Of a stretch of DNA of 64,000 nucleotides, positions 5,238 to 13,732 are shown piece by piece. Where the stretch lies: contig QCBY01000002.1 of assembly GCA_003279005.1 (NCBI GenBank), forward strand, positions 105,208 through 169,207. Reading direction: 5' to 3'. A program made the position numbers and the translations under genes. This DNA comes from Prochlorococcus sp. AG-347-J22 (GTDB lineage: Bacteria > Cyanobacteriota > Cyanobacteriia > PCC-6307 > Cyanobiaceae). Each line of letters starts with the position of its first letter. Position 1 is the stretch's first letter. The notes under the pieces were generated by a model. It saw only the letters and a program-made list of their open reading frames with translations, made no database searches and had not been told where the DNA came from.

Positions 5238-6548
5238 ATGAAAGATATAAAATGTCCATCTTGTGGGAAAACCTTCAGAATTGATCCAAGTAGCTTTGAA
5301 GAAATACTTCTTCAAATAAAAGACGAGGAATTTAACAAACAAATAGAGCAGCGACTTCAACTCGCTGAAGAAGATAAGAAGAAAGGGATAGAAATTGCCA
5401 AACAAGAATTAAAAATACAGTTAATGGAGGATAGGCAGAAAAAAGATGCGAAAATTCAAGACCTGGAGTCAAAGTTGAATATCGCTGAAGAAAAAAAATC
5501 GAATGCATTAAATGAGCTAAATAATAAAGCTTCTAATAAAATTAATTTGTTAAATAATGAAATTGACAAATTGAAGAAGGACATAGAAAGACAATCAATA
5601 ATTAGTGATTTATCATTAAAGAATAAAGTAAGTGAAGCTGTAAATAATTTAGAAAAAGAAAAAACTTCCTTAATAAATTCTATTGAAAAAATGAAATTAG
5701 AACAAACTTTAAATGAGAAAGTAATTGAAGAAAAATTCAAGAACAAAATTACTGAAAGGGATTTAACAATTCAAGAATTAAGAGATATGAAAGCGAAACT
5801 ATCTACAAAAATGGTTGGGGAAACTTTAGAAATACATTGTGAAACTCAATTTAATCTTAATAGAGCAACCTCTTTTAAAAATTCATATTTTGAAAAAGAT
5901 AATGATGCAAGTTCAGGAAGCAAAGGTGATTATATTTTTAGAGAACTTGATGATAATAAAATTGAGATCGTATCAATTATGTTCGAAATGAAAAATGAAA
6001 TTGAAGGTGGATACCATAAACGTAAGAACGAAGAATTTTTTAGACAATTAGATAAAGATAGAACTCAGAAATCATGCGAATATGCTGTATTGGTTTCATT
6101 ATTAGAACCAGAAAGTGAATTATATAACTCTGGGATAGTTGATGTATCTTATAAATATCCAAAAATGTTTGTAATAAGGCCGCAATTCTTCCTACCAATT
6201 ATTTCTCTTCTAAGGAATGCCTCTTTAGAAGCTTTAAAATATAAATCACAAATAGATTTAATGAAGCGAGAAAATTATGACATAACAAATTTTGAAAGTA
6301 CTCTTGATCAATTCAAAAATGCAGTTGGTAAAAATGTATCTTTGGCCCAGGACAGATTTAATGAAGCAATTTCGGAGATTGAAAAATCTATAAGTCATTT
6401 ACAAAAAACAAAAGAGGCTTTGCTGAAATCAAAAAAACATCTTTTATCTGCTGATAGTAAATCGCAAGATTTAACAGTTAAAAAATTAATTAAAAATAAT
6501 CCAACAATGAAAAAGAAATTTAATGAATTGAGAAGTTTAGGAGAATAA
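5238..6548 (+). CDS. DUF2130 protein with zinc ribbon and coiled coil
   Basis: A 436-residue protein. The N-terminus has CPSCGKTF, half of a zinc ribbon or knuckle (residues 5-8). Residues about 25-200 form a long Glu/Lys-rich coiled coil. Residues about 195-350 are the conserved DUF2130 region (KMVGETLEIHCE, GSKGDYIFRE, IMFEMKNE, HKRKNEEFFRQLDKDR, CEYAVLVSLLEPES). A second coiled coil ends the protein. The acidic/Lys pattern (E..K, D...) in the core recalls PD-(D/E)XK nucleases, as suggested for the family, and the overall plan resembles RmuC. A nucleic-acid role is an inference. It stands alone on the plus strand, 140 bases after the ribbon-helix-helix gene. Confidence 0.72.
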   Translation: MKDIKCPSCGKTFRIDPSSFEEILLQIKDEEFNKQIEQRLQLAEEDKKKGIEIAKQELKIQLMEDRQKKDAKIQDLESKLNIAEEKKSNALNELNNKASNKINLLNNEIDKLKKDIERQSIISDLSLKNKVSEAVNNLEKEKTSLINSIEKMKLEQTLNEKVIEEKFKNKITERDLTIQELRDMKAKLSTKMVGETLEIHCETQFNLNRATSFKNSYFEKDNDASSGSKGDYIFRELDDNKIEIVSIMFEMKNEIEGGYHKRKNEEFFRQLDKDRTQKSCEYAVLVSLLEPESELYNSGIVDVSYKYPKMFVIRPQFFLPIISLLRNASLEALKYKSQIDLMKRENYDITNFESTLDQFKNAVGKNVSLAQDRFNEAISEIEKSISHLQKTKEALLKSKKHLLSADSKSQDLTVKKLIKNNPTMKKKFNELRSLGE

Positions 6549-6647: not shown

Positions 6648-6935
6648 ATGGCTAATAACACTCCTATTTATAGTATTGCAAAGGAACTTGATATTGATAG
6701 TAATAGAATTATTTTAGCTTGCAAATCTATTGGTATACCTGCAAAAGGAGCAACAAAAAGATTAAATCAGGAAGAGTTAGAAAAAGTTAAAAATTACTTT
6801 GAAACTGGTAAAAACGTCTCTGAAGAAATAGTTGAGATAAACAAAAAGGTTACAAAAACAAAGAAGAAAAACTCTGAAGTAAAAAAAGACGCAAAAACAA
6901 ACTATTTCCCAAATAGACTTATTGGCAAATCTTAA
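6648..6935 (+). CDS. Free-standing IF2 N-terminal domain protein
   Basis: A 95-residue protein. Residues 5-52 (TPIYSIAKELDIDSNRIILACKSIGIPAKGATKRLNQEELEKVKNYF) match the small helical N-terminal subdomain of bacterial initiation factor IF-2 (IF2_N), which normally sits at the front of a much larger GTPase. Here it is followed only by a Lys-rich tail and no GTPase follows. A stand-alone nucleic-acid or ribosome-binding role is possible but unproven. It follows the DUF2130 gene by 100 bases, same strand. Confidence 0.65.
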   Translation: MANNTPIYSIAKELDIDSNRIILACKSIGIPAKGATKRLNQEELEKVKNYFETGKNVSEEIVEINKKVTKTKKKNSEVKKDAKTNYFPNRLIGKS

Positions 6936-7018: not shown

Positions 7019-7432
7019 ATGAAAATCACTGAGGCATTAAAAACTCTTGAAAATGCTTGGTCAAGAGAGGATGTTCTAATAAAAATTAAAAAAGGAGAAG
7101 AATCCGAAAAAATAATAAATGATTTCTTGAATACAAATAAACAAGAAATAGAGACACTCACTAATTTTATTAATCTAGAAGATAAAATTCTCCTAGGTGA
7201 GATAGAAAATCTATCAAAAATTGAATCAAAACTTATAAATAAAATTAAAAACTATAATTTTACTAAAAATGATTCTTCAATAAAAGAAAAAGTTCAAGAA
7301 TCCTTTCTAAAACATGAACCAAAAAACTTATTTAATTTAGGTTTGTTCATGATGAAATGGAGTAATAAATTTGTATTTATTTCTCTTTTAGTTATATCAG
7401 CAATAGCTTTAACTAAACAGGCATGGATATAA
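7019..7432 (+). CDS. Tail-anchored membrane protein, unknown
   Basis: A 137-residue protein: about 105 residues of charged helix (coiled-coil-like EKIINDFLNTNKQEIETL) followed by one C-terminal membrane span (FVFISLLVISAIALTKQAWI). This is a tail-anchored arrangement with the bulk in the cytosol. It lies 36 bases before the DNA-repair operon, on the same strand, so it may be cotranscribed. No family recognised. Confidence 0.62.
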   Translation: MKITEALKTLENAWSREDVLIKIKKGEESEKIINDFLNTNKQEIETLTNFINLEDKILLGEIENLSKIESKLINKIKNYNFTKNDSSIKEKVQESFLKHEPKNLFNLGLFMMKWSNKFVFISLLVISAIALTKQAWI

Positions 7433-7467: not shown

Positions 7468-8454
7468 TTGATTCAAAAAAGTACTGATTTAATAAAATAT
7501 AGTGACCAAGGTTTGTATTGCGAACTCACAGATACTTGGATAGATCCACATAAACCAGTAAAAAGAGCTCTTATTACACATGCTCACATGGATCATTTTA
7601 CTTTTGGATGTAATGAATATATTTCCACACCTGAAACCTCTTTAATTATAAAAGAAAGAATAGGTAGTAATATAAATATTAAAACTTACGATTATGGAAA
7701 AGAATTTAAAATTAATGGTATCAAACTTTCTTTCCATCCTTCTGGACATATACTTGGTTCTAGTCAAATAAAATTTAATTTTGGAGGTGAGATCTGGTTA
7801 ATAACAGGAGATTTTAAACGTCAAATAGATGAAACTTGCCAAGAATTTGAAAAAGTAAAAACTGATTATCTTATAAGTGAATCAACTTTTGGTTTGCCTA
7901 TATTTAAATGGGAAGAAACTCAAAAAATTGCTATTGATATTTCAAAATGGGTAAATTTATCCCCTGATAGAACTTCTATACTATTTTGTTATTCCCTTGG
8001 GAAAGCTCAAAGATTATTAAATGAAATTAATAAAACAAATTTTAAAAATAAAATTTATACTCACACTAGTATTAATAAGATGAATAACTGTTATAAGAAA
8101 TTAGGAATTGATATTTTTGAAACAAATAAATTTGATAAAACACAAAATATCAATAAATTCAAAGGGAATCTAATTTTACTTCCACCATCATTGAACAGAG
8201 GATCTTTTCTTAAAAAATTTAAAAATATCCAAACTGGTTTTGCAAGTGGATGGATGTCAATAAGAGCCCTCAGAAAAAGATCTGGCTATGATAAAGGATT
8301 TGCTATTTCAGACCATGCAGATTGGGAGGCTATTTTAAAAACATTAAATGAAACAGAAGCTAAAAATGTTTTTTTCCATCATGGAGATAGTGAAGCCTTA
8401 ATTAGATATTTAAATGAAAAAAACTCAATAAATGTTCTTAAATTTGCACCTTAG
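7468..8454 (+). CDS. Ligase-associated MBL-fold DNA exonuclease
   Basis: A 328-residue metallo-beta-lactamase/beta-CASP-like protein. The metal-binding HAHMDH motif is at residues 38-43, HPSGHILGSSQI follows near 93, then TGDFKR, and the C-terminal HADW and HHGDS motifs supply further ligands. Length and order fit the 'DNA ligase-associated exonuclease' family rather than RNase J. It starts with TTG and has no strong SD. Two bases separate its stop from the ligase ATG. Expected role: nucleolytic trimming of DNA ends or crosslinked intermediates in the Lhr-ligase repair system. Confidence 0.85.
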   Translation: MIQKSTDLIKYSDQGLYCELTDTWIDPHKPVKRALITHAHMDHFTFGCNEYISTPETSLIIKERIGSNINIKTYDYGKEFKINGIKLSFHPSGHILGSSQIKFNFGGEIWLITGDFKRQIDETCQEFEKVKTDYLISESTFGLPIFKWEETQKIAIDISKWVNLSPDRTSILFCYSLGKAQRLLNEINKTNFKNKIYTHTSINKMNNCYKKLGIDIFETNKFDKTQNINKFKGNLILLPPSLNRGSFLKKFKNIQTGFASGWMSIRALRKRSGYDKGFAISDHADWEAILKTLNETEAKNVFFHHGDSEALIRYLNEKNSINVLKFAP

Positions 8455-8456
8455 AA

Positions 8457-10097
8457 ATGAGCCTAAATAAGTTTTCAGAATTATTTCTAAATTTAGATTC
8501 AAATAATAGTACAAAAAAGAAAATTGAAATTTTAAAAAATTATTTTTCTACAAATGATGATTTAGAAAATTCTTGGTCAATATATTTGCTTACTGGGAAA
8601 AAGAATAAAAGATTTATTAGTGGGCGATACCTTAAAAGTTTTTTTTCAGATATTTATGAATTTCCTTTATGGTTAATTGATACTTGTTACTTAAGAGTTG
8701 GAGATTCAGCTGAAGTGATAACTTTATTATTAAAGAGTAAAAATATTGGGAAAAATAAATTTACTCAAGATATTTCTTTAGATGAATTATTAAATAAAAT
8801 TTTGCCCGAATTAGCGGTTCTTAAAGAAGATGAAAAGAAATTGAGGGTCAAAGAAATCTGGACGAAATTACCAAAAGAAAATTTACTAATTTTTAATAAA
8901 ATTTTAACTGGTACATTTAGAGTTGGAGTATCAATTGGTTTAATAACAAAATCTATCGCGAATCTTATAAATTTAGATGAGGCAATAATTTCCCATAGAT
9001 TAATGGGTGATTTTAAGCCCTCAGAAGATTCATATAAATTTTTAATAAATAATAAAGTAGATTTAGAAGAATTAAATTACAAACCATATCCTTTTCTTCT
9101 TGCAAATACATTTGAAAAAAAAATTACAGAAGAATCAATAAATAGTTTTCAATATGAATGGAAATGGGATGGCATAAGAATTCAATTAATAAAAAGATTA
9201 GGTAAAGTTTCAATATGGACTAGAGGTCAAGATTTAATTAATAGATCATTCCCAGAATTAGTTGAGAATACTTTATTTATTAAAGATGACTTTGTAATAG
9301 ACGGTGAATTATTAGTTTGGAATTTTGCAGAGGAACTTCCTATGAATTTCTCTTTTCTTCAAAAAAGAATTAATAGAAAATCTCCCTCAAAATCAATACA
9401 AAATAAAATACCAATTATTTTTATTGCCTATGATCTTTTAGAATTAAATGGTGTGGATAAAAGAGAATTAAATTTAGAAAATCGAAGAATTAACTTAGAA
9501 AAGAATTTTCATAAATGGATAAATGAAAGTGAAAAAGATATATCTATTATTTTTAAAATTAGTAATTTATTATTTCCAAAAAATTGGGAAGAGGTTGAAA
9601 ACTTAAAAAATAAATCTAGAGAAAACGCTACAGAGGGCTTAGTTATAAAAAATAAAAATTCTACATATGCTTTAGGTCGAAAAAAAGGTATTTGGTGGAA
9701 GTATAAAGTTGATCCAATGCAACTTGATGCCGTTCTTATATATGCCAAAGGAGGAAGCGGTAAAAGAGCTGGTTTATATACTGACTATAGTTTTGCTTTA
9801 TGGAAAGATGGACAATTAATAAAATTTGCAAGTGCCTATTCTGGTTTAAATAACCAAGAGATTAAAGAGCTTGATAAATGGATTAGAAAAAATACAATTG
9901 AAAAATTTGGTCCTGTAAGGTCAGTAAAGCCAGAAATGGTTTTCGAAATATCTTTTGAAAATATACAAGTTTCAAATCGCCATAAAGCAGGAATTTCAGT
10001 AAGATTTCCAAGAATAACAAAATGGAGAAAAGACAAAAATATTAAAGATGCTGATACTTTAGAAAATGCTCAAAAATTAATGTTAAATAAATTATGA
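8457..10097 (+). CDS. ATP-dependent DNA ligase (ligase-associated operon type)
   Basis: A 546-residue ATP-dependent ligase. The N-terminal helical DNA-binding domain covers about residues 1-210. The adenylation domain follows, with the catalytic lysine in KWDGIR (Lys236) and motifs TRGQDL, DGELLVW, AYDLL, TEGLVIK and WWKYK. The OB-fold comes last, including the FEISFENIQVS...GISVRFPRI block. It ends in an ATGA overlap with the helicase. Cyanobacteria use NAD-dependent LigA for replication, so this enzyme is an accessory repair ligase; in this family it works with the flanking exonuclease and helicase. Confidence 0.9.
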   Translation: MSLNKFSELFLNLDSNNSTKKKIEILKNYFSTNDDLENSWSIYLLTGKKNKRFISGRYLKSFFSDIYEFPLWLIDTCYLRVGDSAEVITLLLKSKNIGKNKFTQDISLDELLNKILPELAVLKEDEKKLRVKEIWTKLPKENLLIFNKILTGTFRVGVSIGLITKSIANLINLDEAIISHRLMGDFKPSEDSYKFLINNKVDLEELNYKPYPFLLANTFEKKITEESINSFQYEWKWDGIRIQLIKRLGKVSIWTRGQDLINRSFPELVENTLFIKDDFVIDGELLVWNFAEELPMNFSFLQKRINRKSPSKSIQNKIPIIFIAYDLLELNGVDKRELNLENRRINLEKNFHKWINESEKDISIIFKISNLLFPKNWEEVENLKNKSRENATEGLVIKNKNSTYALGRKKGIWWKYKVDPMQLDAVLIYAKGGSGKRAGLYTDYSFALWKDGQLIKFASAYSGLNNQEIKELDKWIRKNTIEKFGPVRSVKPEMVFEISFENIQVSNRHKAGISVRFPRITKWRKDKNIKDADTLENAQKLMLNKL

Positions 10098-12568
10098 CAA
10101 TAACTGCTAATAAAACATCCTTAGAACAAATTATAAAATTCTTTGATAAAAATGACTGGAAGCCATTGCCTTTTCAAATTGAATCATGGGAAGCATATTT
10201 GAATGGGGAAAACGGAATAATACAAGTTCCTACTGGCTGCGGAAAAACATATGCAGCCTTAATGGGACCTCTTTCAAAATTAAAAGATTGCAGAAAAAAA
10301 TCCGGTCTAAACATTTTATTAATAACCCCATTAAAAGCATTGAGTAGAGATCTAAAAAATGCAATAGATTCAGCTGCAAAATATTTTGATAAAGAGATAA
10401 CTGTTGGTATTAGAAATGGAGACACTAGTCCATATGAAAAGAAAAAACAAATACTTAATCCTCCAAATATTCTTATAACAACTCCAGAATCCCTTTCTCT
10501 TTTATTGTCCAACAAAGAATCTAAGAATATTTTTAGGAATTTATTTTCAATTATTATTGATGAATGGCATGAGTTAATGGGCAGTAAAAGGGGTAATCAA
10601 TGCGAATTATGTTTAAGTTGGCTAAGAGGAAATAAAAAAGAATTACAAATTTGGGCAATGTCTGCCACTATTGGCAATATTGAAGAAGCCGCCAGAGCAA
10701 TTATTGGTATTAATGCAAATACCCCAAAAATAATTAGTACAAATATTCAAAAAGAAATTGAAATAACAAGTGTTTTACCAGAAGAAGAAACAACCTTCCC
10801 ATGGGGTGGCCATTTAGGTATTAGAAGCTATTCTTCACTTTTAAAAATCTTAGACAAAAATAAAAGTACCTTATTATTCACTAATACAAGAAATCAATCT
10901 GAAAGATGGTACCAATGTCTTAAATTCTGCCTACCAGAAATGCAAGAAAAAATTGCTTTACATCATGGGTCATTAGATAAAGATGAGAGGAAGATAGTTG
11001 AGGATGGAGTTAAAAATGGATTAATAAAATGGGTGGTTTGTACAAGCTCTTTAGATTTAGGAATTGACTTTCAACCTGTCGATCAAATTGTTCAAATTGG
11101 CAGTGCAAAAAATCTAGCTAGACTTATCCAAAGAGCCGGGAGAAGTGCTCATAGACCTGGAGGAAAGTCAAACATAATTTTCATGCCTACAAACGCATTA
11201 GAATTATTCGAAATAAGTGCAATGAGAAGAATAATAAAAACTGGAATATCTGAGAAAATTAACCTTCCTGAATTATCTTTTGATGTCCTTCTTCAGCATC
11301 TTGTAAGTTTAGCTTGTGGACCAGGTTTTAATCCCATTATTGAAAAAGAAAGGATTAAAAATTGTTGGAGTTATAGAAATCTAAATGATAAAGATTGGGA
11401 TTGGTGTATTGAATTTTTAGAGTATGGAGGAAAGTGTTTAAAAGCATATCCAAAATATAAAAAAATAGAAAGAGAAAAATTAAAAGGAGATCAAGATAAC
11501 TTTAATTATTTTGTAAAAAATAAATCTTTAGTAAGGATTCATAAATTTAATATTGGAACTATAACAAGCGATAAATTTATTAATGTAAAATATATAAAGG
11601 GTAAATCATTAGGAAATTTAGAAGAAAATTTTGCTACAAAATTAAAATTAGGTGATACTTTTTACTTTGCGGGTAAAATGCTCCAGTTCGTAAAAATAAG
11701 AGATATGACACTATATGTAAAAAAATCTTCAAAAAAAAGTTCTCTAATCCCAGCCTGGGTGGGAGGCCAAATGGCTATATCTGATCTTCTTAGTGATAGT
11801 TTGAGGAAAGAAATAGATATTTGTAAGGACTTAGATCGTAGCTTTGAATATATAAATAAAGAATTAAATTCACTTCTTCCAATTTTAAAAAAACAGAGAT
11901 CCATTTCTGATATACCTAAAAGTAATCAACTACTTATTGAAATATATAAAACTAAAGATTTAACGAATCTTTTTGTTTTTACACTAGATGGGAAATTTGT
12001 TAATGAAGGAATTGCTTTTTTATGGGCTTCAAGACTTGTAAAGAAAAAACAATCAACTTTTAGCATCACTGCAAATGATTTTGGATTTAGCTTAACAACT
12101 TCAGAAGACTATGACTTTTCAATAATTGAAGAAGAATTTTCTTATTTAGTAGAATCTAAAAATTTAGAAGAAGACTTAGAAAATGCGATTAATTTTTCAG
12201 AATTAACAAAAAGACGATTTAAAAATATTGCTCAAATTAGCGGATTAGTTAATCAAAACAATCCAACTAAAACAAAAAGCTCATCTCAACTACAAATAAG
12301 TTCAAGTCTCTTTTATGACGTATTTAAAAAATATGAAAAAGATCACTTGTTAATCAAACAAGCGCACGATGAAGTAAAAGAATATCAATTAGAAAATAAA
12401 CGAATAACGAATTCACTAAAAAGATTATCTAATTTAAAAATGATATTAAATAGAACTGAAACACCAAGTCCATTTGCTTTCCCTTTATTAGTTGAAAGAC
12501 TTAAAAACACATTAAGCAATGAATCAATAGAAAAAAGAGTTGAAAAACTAATCAAGAAATATAATTGA
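10094..12568 (+). CDS. Lhr-type ligase-associated DEXH-box helicase
   Basis: An 824-residue superfamily 2 helicase: Walker A PTGCGKT (residues 46-52), TPLKALSRD (Ia), TTPESL (Ib), DEWH (156-159), SATIGN (III), the C-terminal helicase core with TSSLDLGID (V) and QRAGRSAHRPGG (VI), then the winged-helix and Lhr-specific C-terminal domains. The length matches the short 'ligase-associated DEXH helicase' family rather than full-length Lhr (about 1,500). Its start overlaps the ligase stop (ATGA), and pdeM follows after 3 bases. It is presumably a 3'-5' translocase that prepares DNA or RNA:DNA structures for the exonuclease and ligase. Confidence 0.9.
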   Translation: MTITANKTSLEQIIKFFDKNDWKPLPFQIESWEAYLNGENGIIQVPTGCGKTYAALMGPLSKLKDCRKKSGLNILLITPLKALSRDLKNAIDSAAKYFDKEITVGIRNGDTSPYEKKKQILNPPNILITTPESLSLLLSNKESKNIFRNLFSIIIDEWHELMGSKRGNQCELCLSWLRGNKKELQIWAMSATIGNIEEAARAIIGINANTPKIISTNIQKEIEITSVLPEEETTFPWGGHLGIRSYSSLLKILDKNKSTLLFTNTRNQSERWYQCLKFCLPEMQEKIALHHGSLDKDERKIVEDGVKNGLIKWVVCTSSLDLGIDFQPVDQIVQIGSAKNLARLIQRAGRSAHRPGGKSNIIFMPTNALELFEISAMRRIIKTGISEKINLPELSFDVLLQHLVSLACGPGFNPIIEKERIKNCWSYRNLNDKDWDWCIEFLEYGGKCLKAYPKYKKIEREKLKGDQDNFNYFVKNKSLVRIHKFNIGTITSDKFINVKYIKGKSLGNLEENFATKLKLGDTFYFAGKMLQFVKIRDMTLYVKKSSKKSSLIPAWVGGQMAISDLLSDSLRKEIDICKDLDRSFEYINKELNSLLPILKKQRSISDIPKSNQLLIEIYKTKDLTNLFVFTLDGKFVNEGIAFLWASRLVKKKQSTFSITANDFGFSLTTSEDYDFSIIEEEFSYLVESKNLEEDLENAINFSELTKRRFKNIAQISGLVNQNNPTKTKSSSQLQISSSLFYDVFKKYEKDHLLIKQAHDEVKEYQLENKRITNSLKRLSNLKMILNRTETPSPFAFPLLVERLKNTLSNESIEKRVEKLIKKYN

Positions 12569-12571
12569 TAA

Positions 12572-13216
12572 ATGCAAAAAAATTCTTCTATTTTTAATTG
12601 GGGTAATTCATCTCTTGAAATGCTTCCTTCGAGAGGATTATTTATACCTCAAACTAGAGAACTATTAATATGCGATATTCATCTTGGTAAAGGAGAGTAT
12701 TTTCAGAAAAATGGGATCCCTCTTACTAATAATTCAGATGAAGAAAACTTATTAAGAATAAAAAAAATCGTAAAAAAAAATAATCCTTATAAATTAATTA
12801 TTCTTGGGGACTTATTTCATAGTAAATATTCAATAAGTGAATCTTTAAAAAGTAAAGTAGAACTTCTTGCTGAAACACTTAAAATTAAAATTGAATTGAT
12901 AGTTGGGAATCATGATGTAGGATGCAAAGTCAAAAATATTAGCTTTCTCCATTTTAAAAGATCTAAAAATTTTATCTTCACTCACGAGCCAATAGGAAAA
13001 TTTGAAGATGATATTTTAAATATCTGTGGACATTATCACCCAAAAATATATTTAAAGGATTCAAAGGATAAATTGTCTTTTAGATGTTTTGCTTTAGATG
13101 AAAAAAAACATATATTTTATCTTCCTGCTTTTGGAGATCTTACTGGAGGTTATCCTTGCAAAAATTCATTTAAGAAATGGGCCATTATTTCTGAAAAAGA
13201 GATAATAAAAATATAA
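12572..13216 (+). CDS. Ligase-associated metallophosphoesterase PdeM-like
   Basis: A 214-residue calcineurin-like phosphoesterase: DIHLGKGEYFQKNGIPL (residues 35-51) carries the first metal ligands and the signature of the ligase-associated family, then LGDLFHSK, GNHD (near 110), THEP and CGHYHPK. In other bacteria PdeM-type genes accompany Lhr-exonuclease-ligase sets and are proposed DNA-damage endonucleases. It is the last gene of the operon. No clear hairpin terminator follows, only AT-rich DNA. Confidence 0.85.
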   Translation: MQKNSSIFNWGNSSLEMLPSRGLFIPQTRELLICDIHLGKGEYFQKNGIPLTNNSDEENLLRIKKIVKKNNPYKLIILGDLFHSKYSISESLKSKVELLAETLKIKIELIVGNHDVGCKVKNISFLHFKRSKNFIFTHEPIGKFEDDILNICGHYHPKIYLKDSKDKLSFRCFALDEKKHIFYLPAFGDLTGGYPCKNSFKKWAIISEKEIIKI

Positions 13217-13423: not shown

Positions 13424-13732
13424 ATGAAAAAATTAATAACTATTTTAATATTTCAAGTTCTTTTAGTTCCTTTTGTGTTGAATGCTAATGAAAACTTTTC
13501 TGTTGAGATAGAGGCTTTAAAACTAGTAATGGAACAATATGAAAAATATATAGGTGTTGAGTCTGAAACTGAGATGGAACTAAATAATAAAAAGCCCAGT
13601 TATATGGCTTTTAAACAAGATGAATGTAATGCTACTGTTAAAGTTACTGAAAAAACAGGTCTAGAAATTGTTGGGACTGAATCCTTTGATGTGAACGTTT
13701 GCAAGAAAGAAGTATACAAAGTTATAAATTAA
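13424..13732 (+). CDS. Small exported protein, unknown
   Basis: A 102-residue protein with a signal peptide (MKKLITILIFQVLLVPFVLNANE, cleavage near ALN/NAN). The mature part, about 80 residues, is acidic with two cysteines (DECNAT and NVCKK), probably a disulfide. It is separated by about 200 bases from the repair operon and so has its own promoter. No family recognised. Confidence 0.62.
   Translation: MKKLITILIFQVLLVPFVLNANENFSVEIEALKLVMEQYEKYIGVESETEMELNNKKPSYMAFKQDECNATVKVTEKTGLEIVGTESFDVNVCKKEVYKVIN

Follow-up and report, generated by a model that had tools for sequence, protein, structure and literature searches.

A complete ligase-associated DNA-damage-response operon, probably acquired horizontally and deleted several times, in high-light Prochlorococcus

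We conclude with good confidence that positions 7468-13216 of the analyzed window (the whole 64,000-nucleotide stretch of Prochlorococcus sp. AG-347-J22, G000:C2:105208-169207) hold a complete ligase-associated DNA-damage-response operon (LigB / Lhr-core / PdeM-MPE / MBL exonuclease), which constitutes an accessory repair module whose high-light copy was probably obtained horizontally and is dispensable. The system has already been described, and the four-gene operon is ordinary for the high-light clade and not special to AG-347-J22.

The source genome (G000) is a fragmented draft of 1.41 Mb (36 contigs, 86% complete), probably derived from a single cell and not from an isolate. In the rpoB tree it was placed within a group of six genomes, which we take to include MED4 and MIT9515 (both HLI), inside a strongly supported clade of 20; AS9601, MIT9215 and SS120 are presumably among the other genomes compared. 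The window therefore probably represents HLI, and the genus searched is probably the high-light clade. An in-frame TAA divides the rpoB gene of G000 (G000:C1:22482-25635), leaving two frames of approx. 187 and 924 residues, which is probably an assembly or sequencing fault.

Composition of the operon

Four open reading frames, all on the + strand, follow one another in the order exonuclease, ligase, helicase and PdeM. The operon and the genes preceding it are as follows:

5238-6548, DUF2130 protein with a zinc-ribbon-like N-terminus, a conserved neighbor of the operon in high-light genomes
6648-6935, 95-aa IF2_N-domain protein (PF04760), a neighbor of the operon in the high-light loci examined, retained after operon deletion
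7019-7432, + strand, candidate companion gene, 137 aa, helical, 35 bp upstream of the exonuclease gene
7468-8454, + strand, ligase-associated metallo-beta-lactamase/beta-CASP exonuclease (TIGR04122), 328 aa, TTG start
8457-10097, + strand, ATP-dependent DNA ligase of the LigB type (TIGR04120 / NF006701), 546 aa
10094-12568, + strand, Lhr-core SF2 helicase (TIGR04121), 824 aa
12572-13216, + strand, PdeM/MPE manganese-dependent endonuclease (TIGR04123), 214 aa

The spacings within the operon are +2, -4 and +3 bp, a pattern repeated across the high-light loci. The sequence-only reading of this DNA had given them as 2-base gaps or 4-base overlaps, which describes the overlap and one of the two gaps correctly, the second gap being 3 bp. 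The next gene downstream begins at 13424, approx. 200 bp away. The TTG start of the exonuclease gene occupies an identical position in 70 of the 85 high-light copies examined; nearly all of the remaining copies also have TTG, at a position extrapolated from a match starting a few codons in.

All four proteins exceeded the NCBIfam cut-offs of the curated ligase-associated DNA damage response families, which bears out the earlier identification of a complete four-gene set. The individual enzymes can be characterized as follows: (i) the exonuclease (TIGR04122, 396.5 bits against a cut-off of 325) carries the motifs THAHMDH, PSGHILGS, ITGDFK, ISDHADW and FHHGD, and its PDB matches are beta-CASP nucleases of the CPSF73 type (CPSF73, Ysh1, Integrator 11), (ii) the ligase (TIGR04120, 502.2/400 bits; NF006701, 666.2/543 bits) is of the LigB type, with N-terminal DNA-binding, adenylation and OB domains (DNA_ligase_A_N PF04675, DNA_ligase_A_M PF01068 and DNA_ligase_A_C PF04679, all above the Pfam gathering score), contains motif I (EWKWDGIR) together with the other motifs, and matches other ATP-dependent DNA ligases in PDB, (iii) the helicase (TIGR04121, 1031.3/850 bits) is an Lhr-core protein (bLhr) with two RecA domains, a winged helix and domain 4 (DEAD PF00270, Helicase_C PF00271, WH_Lhr PF19306, DEAD_assoc PF08494), which ends shortly past domain 4, lacks the C-terminal HTH extension and matches M. 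smegmatis Lhr (5v9x, E 4e-52), and (iv) PdeM (TIGR04123, 169.7/150 bits) carries the calcineurin-like metal-binding motifs DIHLGK, LGDLFHSK, GNHD and GHYHPK, and its only PDB sequence matches are the P. putida MPE structures 6nvp and 6nvo (E 9e-20).

Comparison of each protein with 7 to 24 relatives, in which the invariant columns were scored, revealed departures in the exonuclease (17 of 73 such columns), the ligase (8 of 99), the helicase (6 of 119) and PdeM (4 of 28). Some of them lie inside or beside motif strings, but none replaces a recognized catalytic residue, and every catalytic motif searched for was found in all four enzymes. The active sites thus appear intact, as had been claimed, and the operon is complete and, judging from its sequence, apparently functional.

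G000 encodes a second ATP-dependent DNA ligase of 442 aa on contig 21 (L002:1198-2526), unlinked to the operon and of a type found in nearly all high-light genomes. This protein is probably of the T4-like Pmar-Lig type; Pmar-Lig, likewise an ATP-dependent Prochlorococcus DNA ligase (PMC6698739), belongs to a different family from the LigB enzyme of the operon.

Comparison with known systems

The same four components make up the Lhr-Core/MPE/ligase/exonuclease cluster of Pseudomonas putida (PMC10140301), for which PMC8301817 and PMC10140301 cite Ejaz and Shuman 2018 and Ejaz, Goldgur and Shuman 2019. The composition and order are those of the NCBIfam set TIGR04120-TIGR04123, all four models of which were exceeded, and the loci of Paracoccus pAMI4 and of a Comamonas plasmid, annotated with the names of this set, show the same order (exo-lig-hel-pdeM).

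The high-light Prochlorococcus helicases are divergent from their beta-proteobacterial counterparts (approx. 37-39% identity). The helicase matches the Lhr-core architecture of Mycobacterium smegmatis Lhr (5v9x, 7lhl) in sequence, but with its 824 aa it comprises nothing beyond the Lhr-core and lacks the long C-terminal extension (PMC8301817). In contrast to the P. putida cluster, the high-light loci contain the upstream 137-aa gene, seen only there among the genera searched.

Distribution and deletion of the operon

A search of other Prochlorococcus, which the sequence-only reading had proposed, located the four-gene set at one fixed locus beside pstB (IF2N-h137-[operon]-h102-pstB). In the loci taken from GTDB, wherever the contig was long enough, the order was DUF2130 - IF2_N protein - 137-aa protein - exo - lig - hel - pdeM - 102-aa protein - pstB - pstA.

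Among 52 high-light genomes (51 that are at least 90% complete, plus G000), the ligase model scored above its cut-off in 42, nine had no ligase, and one contained a fragment at a contig end. The helicase model was exceeded in 98 of 151 high-light genomes, many of which are incomplete. Retention of the operon in a small genome had been regarded as noteworthy; it proved to be the norm among high-light genomes, and several lineages of the clade have deleted the operon. Prochlorococcus marinus has also been named among LigB carriers (PMC10140301).

In the wider family, ligase matches were obtained in genomes of 16 of the 31 sampled genera. Apart from the high-light genus, no ligase match was found in the sampled genera with genomes of 1.7-2.0 Mb, which we read as low-light Prochlorococcus because rpoB places several of them beside the high-light clade. 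In cyanobacteria outside the family, the ligase exceeded its cut-off in 2 of 146 genomes and the exonuclease in 4 of 386. Two distant cyanobacteria (G276 and G316) contain the exonuclease, ligase and helicase, and two others (G420 and G459) the exonuclease and helicase, in each case unlinked, and this co-occurrence argues for a functional set. The scattered members of the set in distant cyanobacteria are found at loci L237-L239, L252, L267-L270, L220 and L221.

In six operon-less high-light genomes, the genes flanking the operon are still in place. The interval bounded by the IF2_N and 102-aa genes contains pdeM fragments in G136, G143 and G041 (from approx. codons 69, 71 and 184 onward, respectively), and no pdeM fragment was detected there in G106, G103 and G104. 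Since the deletion junctions differ, several separate deletions are likely, some of which might share a first step. Within the high-light clade, block deletion has removed the operon on several occasions, and it is dispensable.

Three near-complete operon-less genomes (G002, G023 and G250) gave no match to pstB or to the DUF2130 protein, in a search run without a positive control of its own. The pstB match was also absent from G010, G028 and G072, and the DUF2130 gene was missing from G010. This suggests a larger deletion (or an assembly gap) taking in phosphate-transport genes in G002, G023, G250 and G010.

In agreement with these losses, published comparisons report that deep-dwelling HLII-DG isolates lack genes for DNA ligase and for DEXH or DEAD/DEAH helicases (PMC9040837) and that DNA ligase and helicase genes are missing from HL-II-Low genomes (PMC5804319). 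We infer that these are the ligase and helicase of the operon.

Origin of the high-light copy

The sequence-only reading had suggested that trees be built to see whether the operon was acquired as a unit. Three of the genes were analyzed in this way, and topologies were compared by the AU test under a mixture model; the critical grouping was that of the high-light copies with those of g3 and g17, which in the rpoB tree are the Synechococcus-type genera closest to Prochlorococcus. This grouping was rejected for the helicase (p 0.003, and p 0.002 with more outgroups) and for the ligase (p 0.005), so that two of the genes speak against simple vertical descent. The exonuclease was uninformative (p 0.35): its alignment is short, and rows L239 and L252 have branches of length 10, probably because the wrong frame was picked.

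In the ligase tree, the high-light copies grouped with two cyanobacterial ligases from outside the picocyanobacteria, both in a quick run and under the mixture model (support 99/98 in the latter), but a constraint uniting them with the Synechococcus-type ligases was rejected only at a borderline level (p 0.055). The position of the high-light helicases among the Synechococcus-type copies shifted with the model and the outgroup. The copies of g3 and g17 themselves cluster with genera that rpoB places elsewhere. The wider outgroups were plasmid records only, and the long branches and AT-rich composition of the high-light copies may distort their placement.

A Synechococcus ATP-dependent ligase has been inferred to have been lost on an early Prochlorococcus branch (PMC3940434). 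Together with this early loss, the rejections obtained for the helicase and ligase favor entry of the operon by horizontal transfer at the base of the high-light clade.

The operon might instead have been inherited vertically from the common marine Synechococcus/Prochlorococcus ancestor, with a separate loss in every low-light lineage. When other cyanobacteria are included, the helicase tree does unite the high-light and Synechococcus-type copies (94/72), the exonuclease tree is compatible with the g3/g17 grouping, and repeated loss of the operon is demonstrably easy. Such descent is nevertheless at odds with the AU tests of the helicase and ligase, with the clustering of the high-light ligase with the two non-picocyanobacterial enzymes, and with the early-branch loss, and we consider it the less probable history, albeit one with an appreciable chance of being correct. 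Horizontal acquisition is thus the more probable origin of the high-light operon than shared inheritance with the Synechococcus sister copy.

The companion 137-aa gene

The 137-aa gene, which the sequence-only reading did not mention, was present in all carrier loci for which the sequence covers the upstream stretch, and in 58 of 70 loci it is separated from the exonuclease gene by 35 bp. It was not found in nine operon-less high-light genomes, nor in 30 other genera. In all six deletions examined, it was lost while the adjoining IF2_N gene was kept. Linkage alone could explain this co-travel with the operon.

The protein has no Pfam, NCBIfam or PADLOC match, and its AlphaFold model (mean pLDDT 61.5) was too poor for a fold search. 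Its best conserved part is the hydrophobic C-terminus (WSNKF...ISAIALxKQAW), a segment that is probably transmembrane and would anchor the protein in the membrane.

A more elaborate scenario can be imagined, in which high-light Prochlorococcus lost its original module, later acquired a foreign version en bloc at the pst locus and recruited the lineage-specific 137-aa protein as a membrane-anchored fifth component that would bring the repair enzymes to the membrane, the five-gene unit being shed in deeper-living lineages. We regard this scenario as unlikely.

Predicted function and damage target

In the proposed mechanism, the Lhr-core helicase would move 3'-to-5' along single-stranded DNA and open a damaged or stalled structure, PdeM would nick the exposed single strand, the beta-CASP exonuclease would trim the ends and the LigB ligase would seal the nick. 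The order of these steps, the exonuclease substrate and the kind of damage are what we infer, whereas the helicase and MPE activities are established for characterized homologues (PMC7437997, PMC8301817). In M. tuberculosis, lhr, which encodes the long form of the protein, is induced by mitomycin C (PMC7437997). A role in DNA repair is likely by analogy, because the homologues have these activities and because of this induction.

The exonuclease matches beta-CASP nucleases of RNA processing (CPSF73, Ysh1, Integrator 11), and mycobacterial Lhr, according to a reference cited in PMC8301817, prefers 3'-tailed RNA:DNA hybrids, so the module might be thought to act mainly on RNA or RNA:DNA hybrids (R-loops) and not on damaged DNA. 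Because a DNA ligase and a homologue of a DNA endonuclease are constant members of the module, and because studies of bacterial Lhr point mainly to DNA repair (PMC8301817), we find this very unlikely.

A function mainly against phages, as opposed to general repair, is more improbable still. The helicase resembles the PADLOC defense helicases SngC, BrxH and DpdJ, and PdeM weakly matches one defense phosphoesterase model. These helicase matches, however, reflect generic SF2 similarity far below the 1031-bit match to the repair family, the exonuclease, ligase and PdeM match no PADLOC model, the position of the locus is fixed and not variable, and PADLOC recovered no full defense gene set.

As for the damage repaired by the operon, nothing was found to support the interstrand crosslinks or UV products that had been proposed, and the target of the LigB/Lhr/MPE/exonuclease set is stated to be unknown in any organism (PMC10140301). 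The LexA-box pattern gave five one-mismatch matches in the 64-kb window (6.6 expected), none of them just upstream of the operon. An Rfam scan revealed no RNA family near the operon, and scans for sigma-70-type promoters and terminators found fewer promoter-like sites than in shuffled sequences. The suggested tie to strong light fits the absence of the operon from the sampled genera of low-light genome size and the published lack of such genes in deep-dwelling HLII isolates (PMC9040837), but this is a correlation with distribution only.

Significance

What is new here is modest: the block deletions with pdeM remnants, the conflict between trees and the co-travelling 137-aa gene. In all other respects, the operon is a typical representative of an already described system. 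High-light Prochlorococcus nevertheless offers a natural comparison, with close relatives that have or lack the block and some deletions that retain gene remnants, and the 137-aa gene is a testable candidate for a fifth part of the module.
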